A stretch of 26,353 bases of DNA from a virus. A program made the translations under genes and the position numbers. Below are positions 5,861-15,582 of this stretch, in pieces. The stretch covers positions 1 to 26,353 of IMG/VR virus record IMGVR_UViG_3300028615_000028; one strand, 5' to 3'. Numbering within the stretch: the stretch's first letter is position 1; each line of letters opens with the position of its first letter. The notes beneath the pieces are model-generated. The model did no database searches. It was not told where the DNA came from and was given only the letters and a program-made list of their open reading frames with translations.

Positions 5861-6305
5861 TGAGAAAATTACATATTTTACTATAAATACTAAAACTGTT
5901 TTTATCCCTCTCAAATATTTATACCCGGAATGTGTAACTTTGATTGAGAAGCACCCACAGATGTTTCCATTAAAGTGCTTAAAAGAGGATGGGTGTCCAG
6001 TAAATATAGGGTGTATGGATATCCTAGTGAGGAGGTTACATTACTTATTTGATAATGTAATGAAAGACACAGAGTTAGTTTTAGCTTATTTTAAGTACAG
6101 TGACACTAAATCTCTTAGGGCTGGGGTTTTCTTTAAAGACACCAAAATTTTGCCTAGGGTGATAGTGGTTAATCCGTATGGATTTAAAAAATTACAAAAT
6201 GAGGGGACCGTTTATCAATGGCAACCAACAAATGATTATATTAATATTGCACCAACTTCGAATATTATACCCTCTAGTCAATTATTAAAATGTCAGCAGA
6301 AATAA
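5853..6305 (+). CDS. Hypothetical protein between amidase and helicase
   Basis: This 150-aa protein overlaps the amidase by 8 bases and the following helicase by 16 bases, so it belongs to a continuous translated string. I do not recognise a family. It is a mixed alpha/beta soluble protein with four cysteines in its first half (CVTLIEKH, PLKCLKEDGCPVNIGC) and a Val/Ile-rich strand, RVIVVNPYG, around residues 110-118. The cysteines are not in CxxC pairs. There is no membrane segment or clear ribosome site; expression probably relies on coupling. It marks the transition between the lysis and replication regions. Confidence 0.55.
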   Translation: MNNEKITYFTINTKTVFIPLKYLYPECVTLIEKHPQMFPLKCLKEDGCPVNIGCMDILVRRLHYLFDNVMKDTELVLAYFKYSDTKSLRAGVFFKDTKILPRVIVVNPYGFKKLQNEGTVYQWQPTNDYINIAPTSNIIPSSQLLKCQQK

Positions 6306-7729
6306 ATATTTATGGGCCCTATTCAATATTGTCTGGGGAGTTTCCTTTAAAACCTGTTCGTAAAGAAACTTCTTATTTAGTTGAAGGCGCTCGGTTTTCT
6401 AATGCCTACAAAAAAGGTTTGTGGGACGGAAGAAAGCATTTATTCAATAAACAGTCGGGTTCTTTCCCTACAGGACTGCTAAGTACTGTATGTGCAGTAT
6501 TACAAGATTATGAAATAGATTATGAAATTATAGACCATAGGATTGAGCCTAATCCCTTAGGGAGGACTTTTGAATTAAAAGATGTTAAAATGGACGGCAA
6601 GTACTCTTATCAACTAGATGCTTGCCAAACTATGGTTGATAAGAAGCAAGGTATTATTAAGATAGCAACAAATGGAGGGAAGACTGTTATCTCGTGTGCT
6701 GTAACAAATTATTTGAAACTAAATACTTTGTTTATTGTAACTACTAGAGAATTATTATACCAAGTTAGGCGAGAATTTATTCAAAAGTTAGATGTTACAG
6801 AGCAGGAGGTTGGTATTGTTGGAGACGGTCACTGGGATCTAGGGGGATGGGTTACGATAGCGACTTTGGATACATTGGAGTCTCGTATTGATACACAAGA
6901 GTGTATTGATTTTCTTGCTAGTATTGATGTGTTATTTATAGACGAGGCTCATCATGTTGGATCTGAAACTTGGTATTCTGTGTCTACTCTCTGCCCTGCT
7001 TTTTATAGGTATGGCCTATCTGGTACCCCCCTCGATAGAACTGATGGTGCCAATTTACGCCTTATCGCTGCTACGGGTGATGTTATTGTTGACATTACTA
7101 ACAAGTACCTCGTTGATATTGGTGTCAGTGCACGTGCTCATATCATATTTGACAAAATCAGCACCCCACCGATTGAGAAAAAAGCTACTTACACTCAAGC
7201 TTATAAGCAAGGTGTGGTTGAAAATGATGCGCTAAGTGCTAAGGTTATAGAGTGGGTGCAAGTTTTTAACGAGCTGGGCTTATCTACTCTGGTATTAGTT
7301 GAAAAAATTAAGCATGGCAATATCTTAGATAATAAGTTATGGACAGAGACTAATGGTGTATTTATTCCACATCAATTTATTTATGGTAAGGAAACTACAG
7401 AAGTTAGATCAGCAGCCTTAGAGGACTTTAGAAATCGGACACTACCTGTATTAATATCATCTACTATTTTAGATGAAGGTATTGATGTACCAGCCATAGA
7501 CGCTCTAATTTGTGCGGGTAGTAGAAAATCCACAATTAGAACTTTACAAAGGCTAGGTCGGGGCCTTAGAGGGGACAAATTAATTGTGGTGGAATTCTCT
7601 AATTTTACACATGATTATCTACTTAAACATAGTTTAGTGAGGTATAATGACTACAAAAATGAGGAGTGTTTTCCGTTATATCAATCGGGGCCGGACCTAG
7701 ATTTTGTTAAGTCTTTATGGAAGAAATAA
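6290..7729 (+). CDS. uvsW: SF2 DNA helicase, UvsW/XPB-like
   Basis: This 479-aa ATP-dependent DNA helicase matches the T4 UvsW size and domain order. UvsW remodels forks and recombination intermediates and unwinds R-loops. The N-terminal region (ARFSNAYKKGLWDGRKHLF, FPTGLL) is the small domain seen ahead of the motor in UvsW-like proteins. Motifs in order: Q-like YQLDACQ, motif I ATNGGKT (residues 126-132), motif II DEAH (218-221), motif III LSGTPLDR, motif V STILDEGIDVP and motif VI QRLGRGLR. All catalytic residues appear intact. The ATG at 6290 overlaps the previous gene. The likely role is fork regression and branch migration with the RecA and gp46/47 proteins encoded downstream. The family is firm; the UvsW orthology is likely but not proven. 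Confidence 0.88.
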   Translation: MSAEINIYGPYSILSGEFPLKPVRKETSYLVEGARFSNAYKKGLWDGRKHLFNKQSGSFPTGLLSTVCAVLQDYEIDYEIIDHRIEPNPLGRTFELKDVKMDGKYSYQLDACQTMVDKKQGIIKIATNGGKTVISCAVTNYLKLNTLFIVTTRELLYQVRREFIQKLDVTEQEVGIVGDGHWDLGGWVTIATLDTLESRIDTQECIDFLASIDVLFIDEAHHVGSETWYSVSTLCPAFYRYGLSGTPLDRTDGANLRLIAATGDVIVDITNKYLVDIGVSARAHIIFDKISTPPIEKKATYTQAYKQGVVENDALSAKVIEWVQVFNELGLSTLVLVEKIKHGNILDNKLWTETNGVFIPHQFIYGKETTEVRSAALEDFRNRTLPVLISSTILDEGIDVPAIDALICAGSRKSTIRTLQRLGRGLRGDKLIVVEFSNFTHDYLLKHSLVRYNDYKNEECFPLYQSGPDLDFVKSLWKK

Positions 7730-7911: not shown

Positions 7912-8421
7912 ATGGCGGCCACAGTAGTTTCAAAAAGTTTTGGTCAAACTTCTAGTGCTTCTGTTACTCAACAACAGATTAATGAACCCATTCATGTTAC
8001 TCTGTTTGATTTGGTTGTAGGGGATGAAATTATTGCATACATGCGGCTAGGTTTGGCTCTCAGGACCAAAAGGCGGGTGGATGGTACGGTATACAGGACA
8101 GTGCCTTCTCGCCTGGAGACGGCCATCTCGTCTGATTTGACTAGGTTCAGGGGTACAGTCACAGCCAATGATGTAGACCAGAAGATATTATCTGTTAACA
8201 CGGTTAGGGTTGATTCTTGGAGGGTCCCAACAGCCAACAATCCAGTATTACATGCCCAAATTTCATATGGTGCTTTAAAGACTGTGCACTTGCTTAGTGA
8301 TTTTCACTTTGTGCCTAGGGATGAGAATAGACGAGGAGCGGCTCAGTTTAGGCCCACAACTAAAGCTATAGGCACTAATTTTAAGGCATATCGTACTATT
8401 GAAAATATTATTATTCCATGA
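7912..8421 (+). CDS. Hypothetical protein upstream of J-domain gene
   Basis: This 169-aa protein of unknown family starts at ATG 7912, 12 bases after the previous stop, with no Shine-Dalgarno in front. The N-terminal 20 residues are Ser/Thr/Gln-rich. The rest is beta-prone and basic (RTKRRVDGTVYRTVPSR, TVRVDSWRVPTANNP), with no membrane segment or cysteine. Its last codons overlap the next gene as ATGA. It starts the run J-domain protein, helical protein, DnaB, so it may take part in replication, but no sequence feature proves that. The codon composition and coupling support a real gene. Confidence 0.55.
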   Translation: MAATVVSKSFGQTSSASVTQQQINEPIHVTLFDLVVGDEIIAYMRLGLALRTKRRVDGTVYRTVPSRLETAISSDLTRFRGTVTANDVDQKILSVNTVRVDSWRVPTANNPVLHAQISYGALKTVHLLSDFHFVPRDENRRGAAQFRPTTKAIGTNFKAYRTIENIIIP

Positions 8422-8882
8422 AGGTTATAACGGGAAAAGGTAATTTTTTTAAGTTGTTTGGTGCACCTACTTCAGTGGTCCAATACTTACGATATTCTGT
8501 GTCTCAGGCATATAGATATTTTGAGACAGAGGATAAGCCACATTGGTGTGTCCATAGGGATTATCTTATTTATGCAATTCAATTAGGTTATTCTGAATTA
8601 GGGTATGTAGACTATTCGGATATATCGGCTGATTTACAAGTTGAAATAGCTAAATCTAAATCAAGCTGGAAAGTTAGAAATGATTTACCGGATGTTAATA
8701 TCAATTTAAAATATGAAGAATGTTTTGCCTCTTTATTCTTGACGCCAAATGCTCCACATGAGATAGTAGACGCGGTTTGGAAAGCGGTTGTGCGGAAATA
8801 TCATCCTGATGTAGGAGGGGATGAGGACAGGTTCGTACAAATGAAAGACGCTTATGAAAAGATTAAAGGTATTAGTGTATGA
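8418..8882 (+). CDS. Protein with C-terminal DnaJ-type J-domain
   Basis: J-domains bind DnaK-type Hsp70 chaperones and trigger their ATPase. In this 154-aa protein the J-domain occupies about residues 105-152: helix I (LFLTPNAPHEIVDAV), helix II (WKAVVRKYHPDVGG) with the invariant HPD tripeptide at 129-131, and helix III (FVQMKDAYEKIKG). The N-terminal 100 residues (Trp/Tyr-rich, PHWCVHRDYL) match nothing I know and are presumably the client-binding part. There is no Gly/Phe-rich linker or DnaJ zinc domain. It overlaps both neighbours as ATGA and lies two genes before the DnaB-type helicase. The J-domain is clear from the motif; recruitment of host DnaK to replication proteins is inference by analogy with lambda. 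Confidence 0.8.
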   Translation: MKVITGKGNFFKLFGAPTSVVQYLRYSVSQAYRYFETEDKPHWCVHRDYLIYAIQLGYSELGYVDYSDISADLQVEIAKSKSSWKVRNDLPDVNINLKYEECFASLFLTPNAPHEIVDAVWKAVVRKYHPDVGGDEDRFVQMKDAYEKIKGISV

Positions 8883-9514
8883 GCATTATTGAACGTATCA
8901 AAAAACAAAAATTAAAGAAAATATCTAGGTCCATTAATATATCAGAACGAAATGAACAAATTATAAAAAATAAATCTGAAGTTGTTAAAGATTTAATGGG
9001 GAGTACGAATGAACTTGACAAGCATGTAAGTTATGCTAATCAATTATCTTATCACTATTATAAGATGCTACATGAGTATAACACTTATACTTTTGTGTCA
9101 TTAGTAAAGCCGGTTCCAAATAAGAGGGGAGAAAGTTATTGGAATAAAGTAGCAGAACGATGTTTACAAGCCGAAGTATCTCCTGAGAAATATATTAAAG
9201 CACAGTTTGTTTACTTTAATAAACATTTTAATAAGTCGCCAGAGCACAAGCATTTGATAACGGAAGAGGCAGTGAAAAGAGCTAAAACTGTGTCTAGTAT
9301 TCAAGACCGAGTAGTTAGTGATCACTTGCCTTCTAATGTTGATTTAGGGACATTGTTTAGTGAGTGTGAGAAAATGATAAGAAGGCTGTGCCGTGCTCAA
9401 AATATTTCGAGGGAAGAATTTTATCGTAATTTTGTAATACCCGGTATTATAACTATACCCAAACAGTTTTTACAGGCTGACCCAGTATATAAAGCAATTA
9501 TTAAAGGTAGTTAA
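8879..9514 (+). CDS. Helical protein next to DnaB helicase, candidate helicase loader
   Basis: This 211-aa basic protein appears almost entirely helical. It overlaps the J-domain gene (ATGA) and the DnaB-type gene (TAATG). The N-terminal 45 residues are Lys/Ile/Glu-rich. A central block, SYWNKVAERCLQAEVSPEKY followed by IKAQFVYFNKHF, resembles segments I have seen in unnamed phage proteins but cannot name. The C-terminus ends in EEFYRNFVIPGIITIPKQF. Size, charge, helicity and position match what is expected of a helicase loader such as T4 gp59, but I see no convincing sequence match, so this is positional inference. It could also be the client or partner of the adjacent J-domain protein. Confidence 0.6.
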   Translation: MSIIERIKKQKLKKISRSINISERNEQIIKNKSEVVKDLMGSTNELDKHVSYANQLSYHYYKMLHEYNTYTFVSLVKPVPNKRGESYWNKVAERCLQAEVSPEKYIKAQFVYFNKHFNKSPEHKHLITEEAVKRAKTVSSIQDRVVSDHLPSNVDLGTLFSECEKMIRRLCRAQNISREEFYRNFVIPGIITIPKQFLQADPVYKAIIKGS

Positions 9515-10899
9515 TGTCAGAAGAACAACCTTTTGCGGCTTCTGTAGAATACCAAAATAAGGTGTTGTCACTAATGCTGCACCACCCACAATTTTGTGAG
9601 TTGTGTTCATCAGCCATTAGTCCTACAGATTTTAGTAATAAAATCCAACAGTGGTTTTTTAGTAGATTGGCCTTTGCTCCAATTACTTTAACTCCTACTA
9701 CATTAAGAGAAGAGTTATTAAAGGCAGCGAAGAACAAAGAAATTGAAGCAGAGGCAGTTCCTAAATATGTAGAATTATTTGAGTTTATTTTATCTCAGCC
9801 CTCTCCGTATGATGAGGAATATGTTCTAAACCATATGCAGAATTTTGTACGGACACAAGAAGTAAAAAAGGCGATCGTAGACTCTGTTGATCTGATTAAG
9901 GATCAGCAATGGGATGTTATATATTCCCGAATAGAAAAGGCAGTTACGGCTGGTGTAGATATATTATCACAGGGCATTGATTATTTTAAAGAATACCAAG
10001 ATCGTATTGCTAATCGTGTTCATAGAGAAGTTGACAAAAAATTAGGGACTGGCATTCCTGAGTTGGATGCTATGACGTTTGGTGGATTGTCAACCAAGCA
10101 GCTAGGTCTTATAGTAGGTGGTACAGGTAGAGGTAAGAGTATCTTTTTACAGTGGTTAGCAAAGGTCGCTGTAATGTTGAATAAAAAGGTAGTGTATATT
10201 ACCTTAGAGTTGTCTGCTGAAGATACTGCTGATAGATTTGATGCTATGTTTGCTAGAATTAAGCCTAATGCATTGAAGGATCATTCTTCTGAAGCTTTAA
10301 AACGATTAAGCAAATTACACACATCTTGTGGGTCTTCTTTATTTATTAAGGAGTATGCAGAAGATGAGGCTACAGTAACTGATATTAAAGCTTATTTATT
10401 ACAACTTTCTGCAAACAACTTTGTTCCTGACTTGGTATTAGTGGATTACGTGGATTTGATTAAGCCTCACAGAATTTATAATGATACGACTCAGGAACAG
10501 GCTACTGTGATCCAAGCTTTGCGTGGAGTGGCTAAATCTCTAAATACACGAATTTGGACTGCTGCTCAACTTAATAGAGGAGGTTTAGCTATGGAAACTC
10601 CTGATGAGACTAGCGTTTCAGGGGCTATAGCTAAGATTTTTACAGCCGATATTGCTTTATTCATGGCTCAGACAGCTGAAGAGAGGGAAGACCAGTTAAT
10701 GCGTATTTGGGTTTCTAAAAACCGCAATGGTATTGCTGGTAGGGTTATAAAGATCGACACTGAGTATGAATTCATGACGTTTTTTAGGCCACCAGTACAA
10801 ATTGACAATAACGAGGATACTAATGAGCAACGAGACAACAACAACGAAGAAACAACACATGTATCGGTCGATGACCAAGAAGATGTGTGCGTTTTGTAA
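9514..10899 (+). CDS. dnaB: Replicative DNA helicase, DnaB-like
   Basis: This 461-aa hexameric 5'-3' helicase would unwind the phage replication fork. The N-terminal helical domain (residues about 1-110; SVEYQNKVLSLMLHHPQF) is the usual DnaB primase-interacting part. The RecA-like motor begins near 180. Walker A is GGTGRGKS (202-209), the TLELSAE strand is present, Walker B is DLVLVDYVDLI, and the later motif AAQLNRGG and the basic SKNRNGIAG loop are also seen. Its length is typical of DnaB. The last 30 residues are unusually acidic and Asn-rich (DTNEQRDNNNEE), and the next gene starts inside the DNA encoding them. The start is an ATG in TAATG overlap. Family assignment is firm. Confidence 0.92.
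   Translation: MSEEQPFAASVEYQNKVLSLMLHHPQFCELCSSAISPTDFSNKIQQWFFSRLAFAPITLTPTTLREELLKAAKNKEIEAEAVPKYVELFEFILSQPSPYDEEYVLNHMQNFVRTQEVKKAIVDSVDLIKDQQWDVIYSRIEKAVTAGVDILSQGIDYFKEYQDRIANRVHREVDKKLGTGIPELDAMTFGGLSTKQLGLIVGGTGRGKSIFLQWLAKVAVMLNKKVVYITLELSAEDTADRFDAMFARIKPNALKDHSSEALKRLSKLHTSCGSSLFIKEYAEDEATVTDIKAYLLQLSANNFVPDLVLVDYVDLIKPHRIYNDTTQEQATVIQALRGVAKSLNTRIWTAAQLNRGGLAMETPDETSVSGAIAKIFTADIALFMAQTAEEREDQLMRIWVSKNRNGIAGRVIKIDTEYEFMTFFRPPVQIDNNEDTNEQRDNNNEETTHVSVDDQEDVCVL
10813..10817 (+). promoter_or_regulatory. Shine-Dalgarno inside dnaB that sets the next start
   Basis: GAGGA lies five bases before the ATG at 10823, whereas the in-frame ATG at 10802 has nothing comparable. This favours 10823 as the start of the zinc-binding protein. 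The site sits within the helicase's acidic C-terminal codons. Confidence 0.5.
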
Positions 10900-11272
10900 A
10901 GAATTACATTCAGTTTTAACTTCAAGTAAGAATTACGCTAAAGCTAATATATGTGATAAATGTGTGTATGGGTGTGATATTGCTGCTGAAAATATTAGTC
11001 CTGGTGTATTAGTATGTAGATCGTGTAGTTCTCATGATATTTATTATGTGTATAATATTAATTCAAAGTTTATTAAGTACGAGTTTAAAGGTTATACTTT
11101 AGAAGGTTCAGGTATTTATTATCCTATTCAATCTAATTTAAATTTGTCATCTGGTATTAAACACTTGGCTTCTCGTATTATATGTGGTGCGTGCAATAGA
11201 AAGAATCCGTTGTGGTTTATTCTATATAGTAAAAACCTTAAACAACACTTTGTTATTATGGATTATGATTAG
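10823..11272 (+). CDS. ClpX-type zinc-binding domain protein without AAA+ motor
   Basis: The chosen start, ATG 10823, has GAGGA five bases upstream; ATG 10802 is an alternative. The 149-aa protein has C22-A-F-C25 and I-C44-D-K-C47-V-x-x-C. First to third cysteine is 22 residues, the same as in the E. coli ClpX N-terminal domain (CSFC, 18 residues, ICDEC), and the flanking F, I, D and V also match. In ClpX this domain dimerises and binds adaptors and substrates such as SspB, UmuD and lambda O. There is no Walker motif here; the rest is a beta-rich segment holding a second zinc site (C65, C68, C121, C124). The gene overlaps the end of the DnaB-type gene and precedes primase. The resemblance is visible in the sequence; a role in influencing host ClpX or holding replication proteins is inference. 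A plain zinc-ribbon protein remains possible. Confidence 0.65.
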   Translation: MSNETTTTKKQHMYRSMTKKMCAFCKELHSVLTSSKNYAKANICDKCVYGCDIAAENISPGVLVCRSCSSHDIYYVYNINSKFIKYEFKGYTLEGSGIYYPIQSNLNLSSGIKHLASRIICGACNRKNPLWFILYSKNLKQHFVIMDYD

Positions 11273-11274
11273 AC

Positions 11275-12336
11275 ATGAGTAGGTTACAAAAATATGTAAT
11301 AGATAACTTTGATTGGCGTACTTATCTTGAGAAGTATTATGATATTAAGTATGCTAAAGGGAATTCTGAATATCGTATTTGTTGTTTTAATTGTGGGGAT
11401 ACTAAACATAAACTGTATGTTAATGTAGATAAAGGTATTTTTAATTGTTTTAAATGTGATTTTTCGTGTAAGAATTACAATGTATTTGATTTTGTCTCTA
11501 AGACTGAGCATATTTCTAGGGGTACAGCGGTATTAAAACTTTTACAAGAGTATCAGCCAACTACGCCTGAAGAGCTTGAATTGGTTTTTCCTACCTATAA
11601 GCCGGAAGAGAGAATAACAAATAATTTAAAGCGTATCCAGTTACCCGAAGAAGCGGTGCCATTATCAGAGTCTAATAAAAATAATTATAAAGTTTTTTGG
11701 GAGTACCTCTATGGTCGAGGGTTAACGTTTAATGAAATCACAAATCAGTTAAACATACATATTATTCCACAAAGACAATGTGCTATTTATAACAGTAAAA
11801 AACAGTACAAGGGCAATATTGGGCGGAGGCTTATTTGGCCAATATACAAAGAAGGACAATTGGTATCTTGGCAAGCTAGAGCTATACATTCGGGGGTTAC
11901 TTCTAAGTATTTAAACTGCCCTGATGCAGACAGTACGCAAACCCTTTGGCCATATGTTAAACCTTTAGAGAAGACTGTTATTTTAACTGAAGGTGTATTA
12001 GACTCTTTAGCTGTTCGTAGAAACCCAAACTATTCAGCTTATGCAACGTTTAGTAAGAATATATCTAAAGACCAAGTTAATATATTAAAATACTGGGGAG
12101 TCCAGGAGGTGATACTCTTCTGGGATAAACGGGATGCAATGTCTCAAATGGAGAATGCAGCAGAACGTTTAAAAATTTATTTTAAAGTAAGTGTGCCTAA
12201 TTTTTCAAATTGGCCTACAAATTTGGATTGTGGTGACTGCTTGAACTTGCAAGATGGGCAAAAATTGTTAGGTTATGCTGTGGATAATGCAATTTCGGTG
12301 GATTCCTTAGATTATTTGAAATGGAGAATTACATGA
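11275..12336 (+). CDS. DNA primase (zinc-binding domain plus TOPRIM)
   Basis: This enzyme makes the RNA primers for lagging-strand synthesis. The 353-aa product starts with a zinc-binding module, CFNC (37-40) and CFKC (58-61), separated by a short beta hairpin as in DnaG- and T7-type primases. The TOPRIM catalytic core lies at about 230-300: TEGVLDSLAV with E239 and D243, then FWDKRDA with D284, the acidic residues that bind catalytic metal. RRLIWPIYKEGQLVSWQAR just upstream matches the conserved RNAP-basic region of DnaG-like primases. No helicase domain is fused; the separate DnaB-type helicase lies one gene upstream. The start at 11275 is two bases after the previous stop. Function is firm. 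Confidence 0.88.
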   Translation: MSRLQKYVIDNFDWRTYLEKYYDIKYAKGNSEYRICCFNCGDTKHKLYVNVDKGIFNCFKCDFSCKNYNVFDFVSKTEHISRGTAVLKLLQEYQPTTPEELELVFPTYKPEERITNNLKRIQLPEEAVPLSESNKNNYKVFWEYLYGRGLTFNEITNQLNIHIIPQRQCAIYNSKKQYKGNIGRRLIWPIYKEGQLVSWQARAIHSGVTSKYLNCPDADSTQTLWPYVKPLEKTVILTEGVLDSLAVRRNPNYSAYATFSKNISKDQVNILKYWGVQEVILFWDKRDAMSQMENAAERLKIYFKVSVPNFSNWPTNLDCGDCLNLQDGQKLLGYAVDNAISVDSLDYLKWRIT

Positions 12337-12791
12337 AACTAGACACAAATCCTGTATCGGCAGTTATTCAATTTATTAAGATTCACCCAGATGCTAAGTT
12401 GCCAGAGAAGGCTACGGATGGTTCCGTTGGATTAGATGTTTATTCGGTGGATAGTGTGTCATTGAAATCTGGCGAGGTGAAAATGGTTCCTACTGGGCTG
12501 AAGATTGCTCCGCCGCCTTATATTGAGGTTCAGGTTCGGCCTAGATCTGGATTAGCCGTAAAAAAAGGGATTACTGTTTTTAATTCTCCAGGGACTATTG
12601 ATCCGGATTATCGAGGGGAGTTAGGGGTTATATTAGTTAATTGTGGCACTCAATATGTTAATTTGACTAAGGGGAGTAGGATAGCTCAGTTAGTAGCTAA
12701 GCCTATCATTCCGGTAGTTATGACAGCTGAGGTTGAAGAGTTTGATCAGACAGGACGAGGAGAAGGCGGATTTGGAAGCACCGGAGAATAA
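12333..12791 (+). CDS. dut: dUTP diphosphatase (trimeric dUTPase)
   Basis: This enzyme converts dUTP to dUMP and PPi, keeping uracil out of DNA and supplying the dTMP precursor. The start at ATG 12333 is preferred over 12321, because GGAG (12323-12326) sits six bases before it and it overlaps the primase stop as ATGA. The 152-aa product has all five motifs: I TDGSVGLDVYS, II RPRSGLA, III GTIDPDYRGELGV, IV GSRIAQLV and V GRGEGGFGSTG. Length and motif spacing are typical of the homotrimeric family, with the catalytic Asp in motif III and the Phe of motif V present. The DNA encoding motif V also serves as the ribosome binding site of the next gene. Confidence 0.95.
   Translation: MKLDTNPVSAVIQFIKIHPDAKLPEKATDGSVGLDVYSVDSVSLKSGEVKMVPTGLKIAPPPYIEVQVRPRSGLAVKKGITVFNSPGTIDPDYRGELGVILVNCGTQYVNLTKGSRIAQLVAKPIIPVVMTAEVEEFDQTGRGEGGFGSTGE
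12758..12766 (+). promoter_or_regulatory. Ribosome binding site inside dUTPase motif V
   Basis: AGGAGAAGG, which encodes part of the dUTPase motif V, lies five bases before a TTG codon at 12772 in another frame. It is the best reason to start the next gene at 12772 rather than at the TTG at 12733. Confidence 0.5.
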
Positions 12792-13218
12792 TCCTTTTAA
12801 GCACAAAAGACTAGGGTACCTTTCAAGTGATCGTCCGAGTGATGAGTTGTTAAAGGTCGCGTTAGAGCAGTTACCTGGAGAGGGGACATTACCCAAGTAT
12901 TGGAAGTATGGTACGCATGATGATTATTGCGAGATGTATGGACATTTAGGGAAGGTTGTTTGGGCAAAGTCTTATAATCATCACTTACTGATCTTATATG
13001 GCCAACGAATATTGCGTATCTGGACTGACTTGTCTAATCATTGTTGGGTGGATATTACAGAATACTTAGTTCCTATAGTACAGCAATGGTTTGTGGTTAA
13101 GCCTGTTCCAGCAGGCTGTTATAAAAAATCCAAACCTTTTCAATATCGTATAAAAGTCCACTCAGTGGAGGAAATGGCTACGTTAATAGCTTATGTTAGG
13201 GATTGCTATGGGTTTTAA
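12772..13218 (+). CDS. Hypothetical protein after dUTPase (probable TTG start)
   Basis: This frame has no early ATG. The TTG at 12772 is chosen because of the strong AGGAGAAGG upstream, giving 148 aa. The TTG at 12733 would give 161 aa and a longer overlap. I recognise no family. The protein is aromatic-rich and soluble (LPKYWKYGTHDDYCEMYG, HCWVDITEYL), with a basic patch, CYKKSKPFQYRIKVHS, followed by a final helix. The gene overlaps dUTPase and the following zinc-ribbon gene, so it belongs to the replication string. Function unknown. Confidence 0.5.
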   Translation: MEAPENNPFKHKRLGYLSSDRPSDELLKVALEQLPGEGTLPKYWKYGTHDDYCEMYGHLGKVVWAKSYNHHLLILYGQRILRIWTDLSNHCWVDITEYLVPIVQQWFVVKPVPAGCYKKSKPFQYRIKVHSVEEMATLIAYVRDCYGF

Positions 13219-13444
13219 GTTATATTTGTTTTATTGTGAAAAATGTTCTTATGAGTGGGAAGATTTAGTTTTAGAAAAATCTAGTTCTTGTGAGTCTTGT
13301 GGACAGGTGTCTAACACTATTGTACCGATAGCTGAGCTAGGTAGTTTTTCAATGTCTAGCCCAGAGGATAAAGAGGCTAAATTACGGAAGAGGTCTGCAG
13401 ACCATACGAAAAGAGAGATGCGGAAGCACGGTAAGGTATTGTGA
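13208..13444 (+). CDS. Small zinc-ribbon protein
   Basis: The ATG at 13208 (AGGG six bases upstream) is preferred over the in-frame ATG at 13193. The 78-aa product begins with one zinc ribbon, YCEKCSYEWEDLV then SSCESCG, similar in layout to FmdB- or rubrerythrin-type ribbons. A basic, charged tail follows (KLRKRSADHTKREMRKHGK). Such ribbons commonly bind nucleic acid or proteins. It overlaps the polymerase gene by four bases (GTGA), so the two are co-translated. Whether it modulates the polymerase is unknown. Confidence 0.6.
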   Translation: MGFKLYLFYCEKCSYEWEDLVLEKSSSCESCGQVSNTIVPIAELGSFSMSSPEDKEAKLRKRSADHTKREMRKHGKVL

Positions 13445-15582
13445 AGTTAGAGAAATTTAATGGGGTTACCATGCCGATGTTTGAAGGTGTGGGAGGAGCC
13501 CGGTTATTTTTAGTCCAAGACGAGGAGGCATTTAAAGCTTTCTTTGATGCTCTCATGGAACAAAGTGTTGTGTCTTGCGATACTGAGACTAGCGGTCTGG
13601 AGTGGTATAAAGAGCATATTGTTGGTGCTAGTTTTGGGTGGAAAACAGATAATTTTTACATACCTATTAGACATAAGCCTTCTGTGTTGGAACCAGAGAA
13701 GGTTACTCAATTAGACCCAGAGTTTTTCTTTGAAAACATTAGACATTTCTTTAATCAAAAAGATGTGATGAGTGTGTGGCACAACTGGAAGTTTGATGCT
13801 CACATGTATTTTAGGGATGGAGTGGAGATTAAGACACCTTTTCATGACACTCTAATTTTATGGAAGTTATATGATGAAAATGCCCCCGGTCAATTGAAGT
13901 CTATTGCTTCTGGTTGGAGAGATGCTTTAGGACGATTCCAAAAAGGGTTGGTGGATTCTAAAGCTGGGAATTCTGAAAAAGAATTGAAGCTTTGGCGAGG
14001 TAAGGAAGCTAGGGCTAGAAGGAAAGTTTTTAGTTCATTAGTAGATGAAAAATGCGACTTTTTAGAAACAAATGTTGAATTTCAAAAATATAATAGACGT
14101 GAATTAAAACAATATATTAAGTCTGAAATCTTACATAATCATGACTTTGCTAAGACTACCATAGATGATGTTCATTATGGGTACGTGCCTGTGGAGATGA
14201 TGTGTGAGTACGCAGGTTTGGATACTTTTTTTACCACCAAGATTTATGAATTTTGTATGAAAAATATATCTTGGACGGAGTCTGTCAAAAAATTGTATTT
14301 AAATGAAGTGCAGTTGAGCCGAGCGATTTTTGATATTGAAGAAAAAGGTATTTGTTTAGATGTGCCTTATTTAGACAAGGTAGAGACAATTTTAAAGAAA
14401 GATATTGAGGCTTTAGAAATTGAATTAAAAAGAGAACTTAATGATATTAATCTCCGGTCTTCTGAACAATTAGGTCAAGCTTTATTGAAAGTTGGAGTGC
14501 CTCTTACGAAAAGAACTAACACTGGAAATCTTATGGTTAGTAAAGATGTATTAGCTGATTTTCGTACGGAATACGATATTATTGATTCAATACTATCTTA
14601 TAAAGAACTAGAAAAGCTTAGATCTACTTATGTAGAAGGCATTAAAGAAAAATTAGTAGGTAATATATTACATTGTAATTTTAACCAAAATGTTACAACT
14701 GGACGTATGAGTTCATCGGACCCTAATTTACAGAATATACCTGGTAAATCTAATTTGATTAGAGCGGCATTTGTACCCCCGAATGATGAATATGTGTATG
14801 TTTTATGTGATTATAGCCAGGTGGAACTTAGATTAACGGCTCATTTTAGCCAAGATCCATTATTATTGGATTCTTATGCTAAAGGTCAAGATGTCCATTC
14901 TCGTACTATGTGTGAGATGTTTGGAGAATTCTACGAGGAAGTTGCAAAAATTCGGCAGGATGAGTTGCATCCTCGCCATAAGGACTTAGATTTACTGCGT
15001 AGCATCGCAAAAACAATTAACTTTGCCATTATCTATGGGGTTGGCCCTTCTGGTTTGGCCAAACAAATTCCCCGCCCTGAACAACATCAACATTTAACCC
15101 CTGCGGAATGGGTTCAGGTTTGTAAAGAATATCAAGATAATTACTTATCCACATATTTAGGAGTTAAGAGAATGATTAATAAAGGTTCTAGGTATGTGAA
15201 AAAACATGGTAAGATGACTAATAGTTTTGGTAGAGTCAGACACTTGCCTCATTATAAAGCTAGTAAAATTTTAGGCAGTCAAGCTTTTTGGATGGAAGCT
15301 AAAGCACAACGACAGGGGGTGAATTTTCTAGTCCAGGGAACTGCCGCTGATATCTTTAAGATTGCAGTAGTACGATGTGCTGAGTTATTAAAGGGAACTA
15401 AGTCTTATATGGTGAATATGGTCCATGATGAGATTCAGTTTTATATTCATAAGAGTGAGCTTCACTTACTTAAATCAATTAAGGAAAGAATGGAGGACTT
15501 CCCTCAGTTTCAAGTACCTTTATTAGTAGATATGTCTTGGACTGAGGAAAATTGGGCAAATAAAAAAGCAGTTCTATTATGA
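13441..15582 (+). CDS. polA: Family A DNA polymerase with 3'-5' exonuclease
   Basis: This is the probable phage replicative polymerase, 713 aa, with a GTG start overlapping the previous stop. The N-terminal half is a DEDDy proofreading exonuclease: DTET (D47, E49), a WHNWKFDAHMY strand and YAGLDTFF. The polymerase part has motif A CDYSQVELRL (D457), motif B R520-SIAK524-TINF528-AIIY532-G, and motif C VHDE (661-664). Catalytic Asp and Glu residues are intact. The residue equivalent to E. coli Pol I Phe762 is Phe (F528), the ancestral state. There is no 5'-3' flap domain, as usual for phage Pol A. The stretch at about residues 150-230 is rich in Lys/Arg/Glu and looks like an insertion between exonuclease motifs. 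Family assignment is firm. Confidence 0.95.
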   Translation: MKLEKFNGVTMPMFEGVGGARLFLVQDEEAFKAFFDALMEQSVVSCDTETSGLEWYKEHIVGASFGWKTDNFYIPIRHKPSVLEPEKVTQLDPEFFFENIRHFFNQKDVMSVWHNWKFDAHMYFRDGVEIKTPFHDTLILWKLYDENAPGQLKSIASGWRDALGRFQKGLVDSKAGNSEKELKLWRGKEARARRKVFSSLVDEKCDFLETNVEFQKYNRRELKQYIKSEILHNHDFAKTTIDDVHYGYVPVEMMCEYAGLDTFFTTKIYEFCMKNISWTESVKKLYLNEVQLSRAIFDIEEKGICLDVPYLDKVETILKKDIEALEIELKRELNDINLRSSEQLGQALLKVGVPLTKRTNTGNLMVSKDVLADFRTEYDIIDSILSYKELEKLRSTYVEGIKEKLVGNILHCNFNQNVTTGRMSSSDPNLQNIPGKSNLIRAAFVPPNDEYVYVLCDYSQVELRLTAHFSQDPLLLDSYAKGQDVHSRTMCEMFGEFYEEVAKIRQDELHPRHKDLDLLRSIAKTINFAIIYGVGPSGLAKQIPRPEQHQHLTPAEWVQVCKEYQDNYLSTYLGVKRMINKGSRYVKKHGKMTNSFGRVRHLPHYKASKILGSQAFWMEAKAQRQGVNFLVQGTAADIFKIAVVRCAELLKGTKSYMVNMVHDEIQFYIHKSELHLLKSIKERMEDFPQFQVPLLVDMSWTEENWANKKAVLL

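Follow-up and report, generated by a model that had tools for sequence, protein, structure and literature searches.

The window (the whole stretch of DNA analysed, 26,353 nucleotides) comes from an IMG/VR record that is a linear 26 kb fragment, and it carries a tightly packed replication operon. The operon contained the following: an SF2 helicase gene (6290-7729); a gene two positions 5' of the replicative helicase, encoding a protein with a C-terminal, HPD-containing J domain identified by a DnaJ match (8418-8882, plus strand); a gene for a 211-aa protein (8879-9514); the DnaB-like replicative helicase gene (9514-10899, plus strand; phrog_19, E = 6.6e-71; DnaB_C, 1.3e-23); a 149-aa open reading frame (ORF) whose product is here called the two-zinc protein (10823-11272, plus strand); a DnaG-like primase gene encoding its own CHC2 zinc finger and a Toprim domain (11275-12336, plus strand; phrog_47, E = 8e-48; Zn_ribbon_DnaG, 9.3e-7); a dUTPase gene (12321-12791); and the PolA gene (13441-15582), past which lay the genes for SSB, UvsX, SbcD, and SbcC. 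The cultured phages closest in helicase and primase were herelleviruses, at approximately 25-30% identity. The host was not inferred, because a scan of genome contigs with the helicase returned zero matches. A second small zinc-ribbon protein, with a weak Zn_ribbon_8 match, was encoded between the dUTPase region and PolA (13193-13444), and an apparent relative of it was present in a related contig, L053 (4213-4509).

The two-zinc gene starts at an ATG at position 10823, just before which the sequence CGAGGA is a plausible ribosome-binding sequence. The sequence-only reading had placed this gene next to the replicative helicase, and the two in fact overlap, the 3' end of the helicase gene sharing 77 bases with the ORF; the primase starts 2 bases past its stop. 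The overlap could suggest a spurious ORF, an explanation that was refuted by conservation and to which we give practically no weight. Homologues of approximately 124 to 153 aa were found at 14 further distinct loci in related uncultivated phages, between the DnaB-like helicase and the DnaG-like primase, and in most of these their starts overlap or abut the helicase stop. These relatives were recovered via helicase and primase searches; searching phages and viral contigs with the two-zinc protein sequence alone yielded none. The homologues shared about 16 to 31% identity across many contigs, with conserved zinc ligands, the nearest being that of contig L051 (BLASTP E = 7e-23), and the family alignment supported a confident predicted fold. 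The two-zinc family is therefore real, and it is new to the libraries searched.

In the window protein, the cysteines are arranged as C22-x2-C25, C44-x2-C47, C51, C65-x2-C68, and C121-x2-C124. In the 15-member alignment (the window protein and the 14 others), the conserved residues were C22, F24, C25, C44, C47, C65, C68, Y99, C121, C124, and P129, except that the first C-terminal knuckle of L051 reads CRC. The net charge was positive in 13 of the 15 members (pI 8.1 to 9.6), and two were acidic. A search of the records of 16 relatives turned up no further copy of the gene. The gene was missing at least three times among the relatives, being absent between helicase and primase in L049, L053, and L143, and a shortened version in L141 (5413-5736), the sister of L143, encodes a CSFC ... 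ICTVC finger and a probably helical tail and lacks the second zinc module. In the helicase tree, all four of these contigs were nested inside clades that have the two-zinc gene, which indicates that the gene is old in the clade yet dispensable, and hence not a core part of the replisome.

The N-terminal finger of the window protein reads CAFC, 18 intervening residues, and ICDKCVYGC. The sequence-only reading had drawn attention to its ClpX-like cysteine spacing, which is real, as is the ORF; the 18-residue gap from C25 to C44 holds if the isoleucine is counted (17 residues plus Ile), although that reading had put all 18 before the isoleucine. The exact motif, CxFC-x17-ICDxCVxxC (10886-10975, plus strand), was sought as the DNA pattern TGYNNNTTYTGY-N51-ATHTGYGAYNNNTGYGTNNNNNNNTGY, which occurred once in the window and in 0 of 100 dinucleotide shuffles. 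At least 119 stretches of the viral contigs matched the exact 18-residue pattern, and every one listed was a ClpX-type zinc domain: among the matches listed, 118 were intact and scored at least 33 bits against a ClpX zinc-domain profile built here, and one further frame was broken. Forty-five of these 118 had the motor behind the finger and 73 (56 distinct) were stand-alone. A 19-residue version of the pattern matched 41 stretches in viral contigs, all of them ClpX or stand-alone ClpX-type domains. Because the listed matches at both spacings were all ClpX-type, the motif is diagnostic as a rule.

The window protein is an exception to this rule, its pattern being exact and its ClpX score low. 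Against Pfam zf-C4_ClpX (PF06689; curated cut-off, 27 bits), the window finger alone scored 6.8 bits, compared with 35 to 67 bits for true phage ClpX-type domains, and a Pfam search of the window protein at E 1 did not find zf-C4_ClpX. When the nine motif residues were held and the rest of the window finger was shuffled, 912 of 1,000 shuffles scored at least as well against ClpX as the real sequence; the ClpX likeness of the window sequence alone is confined to those nine residues. The CxFC, its Phe invariant in 15 of 15 members, and the (I/V)CxxC are kept in the relatives, but the gap between the cysteine pairs ranges from 14 to 20 (18 also occurs in L052, L132, and L137); the window protein alone has D45 and C51. 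The most striking ClpX likenesses of the window are thus peculiar to it: most or all relatives lack its exact spacing, its fifth cysteine, and the Asp that follows C44, which are therefore not inherited ClpX features.

At the level of the family, the comparison was more favorable. Finger 1 (approximately residues 19 to 56, with C22, C25, C44, and C47; 10877-10990, plus strand) appears treble-clef-like in profile comparisons and predicted structure, and its nearest known family is the ClpX zinc-binding domain. In Pfam searches, zf-C4_ClpX was matched by 9 of the 15 members (best E, 6.9e-6) and was the top Pfam family in those nine; the best relative scored 26.3 bits, and one relative reached 28 bits, just past the cut-off, in a six-frame search. 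Profile-profile alignment (hhalign) of the family finger with the ClpX domain gave a probability of 95.5 to 96.6%. A reciprocal search of 10,905 ORFs, a set rich in ClpX because of the way it was gathered, placed ClpX-type domains next after the family for the family profile and the two-zinc family next for the ClpX profile. The claim of a ClpX-type domain is supported for the family; the window sequence taken alone has no significant zf-C4_ClpX hit.

These data also bear on whether finger 1 could be an unrelated treble-clef finger, convergent on the ClpX-like pattern, with a DNA- or RNA-binding role like that of GATA-type fingers. Most of the profile signal comes from CSFC and the second cysteine pair: 100 shuffles with only the cysteines fixed reached a maximum of 27.6, and a further 100 that preserved these two elements had a median of 26.7 and a maximum of 40.1, against a real score of 42.3. 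In a PDB profile search with the smaller alignment, moreover, GATA-3 was level with ClpX. The real score nevertheless exceeded those of all 200 shuffled profiles, and with the larger alignment the top three PDB matches were the ClpX domain, at marginal E values of 0.03 to 0.06; together with the ranking of zf-C4_ClpX among the nine members, this makes convergence unlikely. Judged from sequence comparisons, finger 1 is probably a ClpX-type domain at the family level, and common ancestry with the ClpX zinc domain is likely, though not proved. The two share four cysteine ligands arranged as CxFC ... (I/V)CxxC, with a hydrophobic residue and then a helix after them, and the knuckle, hairpin, and helix order (predicted for finger 1), and the cysteine spacing of the window is identical to that of ClpX. 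Unlike ClpX, the two-zinc family has no AAA+ motor, has a loop of 14 to 20 residues, and carries an extra zinc module; the window finger lacks the LIAGP-type core, and the family falls below the curated cut-off bar one relative. The absence of the motor had been recognized in the sequence-only reading, and the 149-aa ORF indeed contains no Walker motifs and gave no AAA+ match.

The second zinc site suggested earlier also proved real and is conserved in the family. This C-terminal module (residues 62 to 143; 11006-11251, plus strand), delineated from the alignment and the predicted structure, has knuckles at C65/C68 and C121/C124, a four-strand sheet, and then short helices. AlphaFold2 with the family alignment modelled the two-zinc protein at a pLDDT of 85 and a pTM of 0.75, compared with a pLDDT of 38 from the single sequence. 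In the model, finger 1 comprises strands 32-34 and 42-44 and a helix at 45-54 with C44 and C47 at its start, and the C-terminal sheet comprises strands 73-78, 83-91, 97-104, and 114-121, with the second set of cysteine pairs at its two ends. The predicted order of elements in finger 1 fits a treble clef as in 2DS5 and 1OVX, although the fold searches barely covered this finger. Foldseek and VIA gave weak, mostly C-terminal matches, aligned mainly to residues 66 to 149, to Sm-like proteins and the HCV NS3 protease (Z 2.5), which were judged too weak to be meaningful. No functional match was found among the solved or predicted structures searched.

Several other small proteins invite comparison. 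The stand-alone ClpX-type domains found in phages and prophages (PHROG 5259, 12435, 6797, and 20296) are likewise small and motorless with a ClpX-like finger, and phrog_5259 also matched several members of the two-zinc family. ClpX-type zinc domains, with or without a motor, were frequent in viral contigs (loci L176-L294 and L007-L047), and searches of the open-access literature returned no study of stand-alone ClpX domains in phages or of their function. Unlike the window finger, the stand-alone domains score 33 to 70 bits, as true ClpX domains do, and none of those among the matches listed has the second zinc module; the window protein, scoring far too low, was ruled out as an ordinary stand-alone ClpX domain. 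A detached primase zinc finger was likewise ruled out, since the neighboring primase retains its own CxxC/CxxC, and the DnaG zinc-binding domain (PF01807) had no match in the two-zinc protein. In herellevirus-like phages (L006, 12483-12704; L059, 9531-9809), a small cysteine-pair ORF also lies directly 5' of a DnaG-like primase, but these ORFs have a CxxC ... CxxCP pattern and no detectable homology to the two-zinc protein. One 150-kb herellevirus-like phage, IMGVR_UViG_3300036783_000080 (L215 and L059), carries an 86-codon frame for a true stand-alone ClpX zinc domain as well as, directly before its primase, the different small cysteine-pair ORF.

CsfB of Bacillus, an inhibitor of sigma factors, forms a stand-alone treble-clef dimer whose closest likeness is to the N-terminal domain of ClpX; the authors of that study doubt that the two have partners or function in common (PMC5890618). 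The two-zinc protein resembles CsfB/Gin in having a small treble-clef finger of the ClpX-domain type, and by this precedent it might act as a host-takeover regulator whose target is a sigma factor or RNA polymerase instead of ClpX; its repeated absence from relatives would fit such an accessory role. However, CsfB/Gin has no second zinc module and another genetic setting, and the gene studied here sits within a replication operon. In addition, finger 1 of the members listed did not match CsfB/Gin (PF10764) at E 1, the sole match being in the C-terminal part of L051 (E 0.023). We regard this role as rather improbable.

The family-level likeness of finger 1 to the ClpX domain raises a further alternative, namely, that the finger imitates the ClpX zinc domain, occupying adaptors or substrate tails or pairing with ClpX itself, and thereby shields the phage's replication proteins from ClpXP or redirects it. 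The ClpX zinc domain is the site that binds adaptors and lambda O; in Escherichia coli ClpX, trigger factor and lambda O both bind the region where F16 and I46 lie (PMC7804408). The invariant Phe of CxFC would suit such mimicry, as would the relatives' records, a search of which revealed no phage-encoded ClpX. Against it stand the low score of the window finger, which, motif residues apart, does no better than its shuffles, the variable spacing of the family, and the equivalent of I46, which is Ala in the window (by-eye alignment to the E. coli sequence) and is not conserved in the family; CsfB, moreover, has the same fold with an unrelated function. On the sequences compared, competition with ClpX is possible but unsupported, and we consider interference of this kind distinctly unlikely.

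The J-domain gene gives the helicase a further neighbor of interest. Homologues of the window's J-domain protein (120 to 160 aa; L050, 3892-4365; L051, 2839-3279; L132, 2996-3364; L155, 274-735; and others) matched DnaJ in 13 of 13 cases (best, 5.8e-11) with an invariant HPD. Where a relative's contig extended far enough upstream, the gene lay 5' of the helicase, and this was so even in L049 and L143, from which the two-zinc gene is missing. DnaK-binding J-domain proteins have been described in phages (RB43, cited in PMC12619734). A conserved J-domain protein beside the replicative helicase suggests that phages of the clade supply a chaperone connection to replication themselves, and the protein is perhaps a phage helicase factor that recruits DnaK. 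It is conceivable, but very unlikely, that the J-domain and two-zinc proteins form a chaperone-handling pair at the helicase, the former recruiting host DnaK and the latter, as a ClpX-domain mimic, recruiting or blocking host ClpX, so that together they would control replisome assembly and turnover. If true, the pair would be a phage-encoded counterpart of lambda's use of host DnaJ/DnaK and ClpX.

Our preferred, tentative reading, with a probability of roughly 0.45, is that the two-zinc protein is a dispensable accessory of the phage's own primosome or replication machinery. Finger 1, as a treble clef of the ClpX-domain type, would most likely mediate a protein contact or self-dimerization; the C-terminal zinc module, which is basic in most of the family, would most likely contact nucleic acid or a replication protein; and the protein made from the overlapping frame would assemble with the helicase, the primase, or both, tuning or perhaps bridging the primosome. 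The position of the gene, its coupling to the helicase frame, and the mostly positive charge favor an accessory role. The nested absences speak against a core part of the replisome, the two acidic members also count against this reading, and operon position alone is a weak argument for partnership.

Stand-alone ClpX-type zinc domains are common in viral contigs, accounting for 73 of the 118 intact exact matches listed. The two-zinc family is a divergent form with a second zinc module attached and a fixed position in the replication operon, and this combination poses a simple question: whether the protein binds the helicase and primase, ClpX, or the adaptors of ClpX. Binding to ClpX, if it occurred, would make the two-zinc protein a clear example of a phage taking over the adaptor-docking domain of a host unfoldase.
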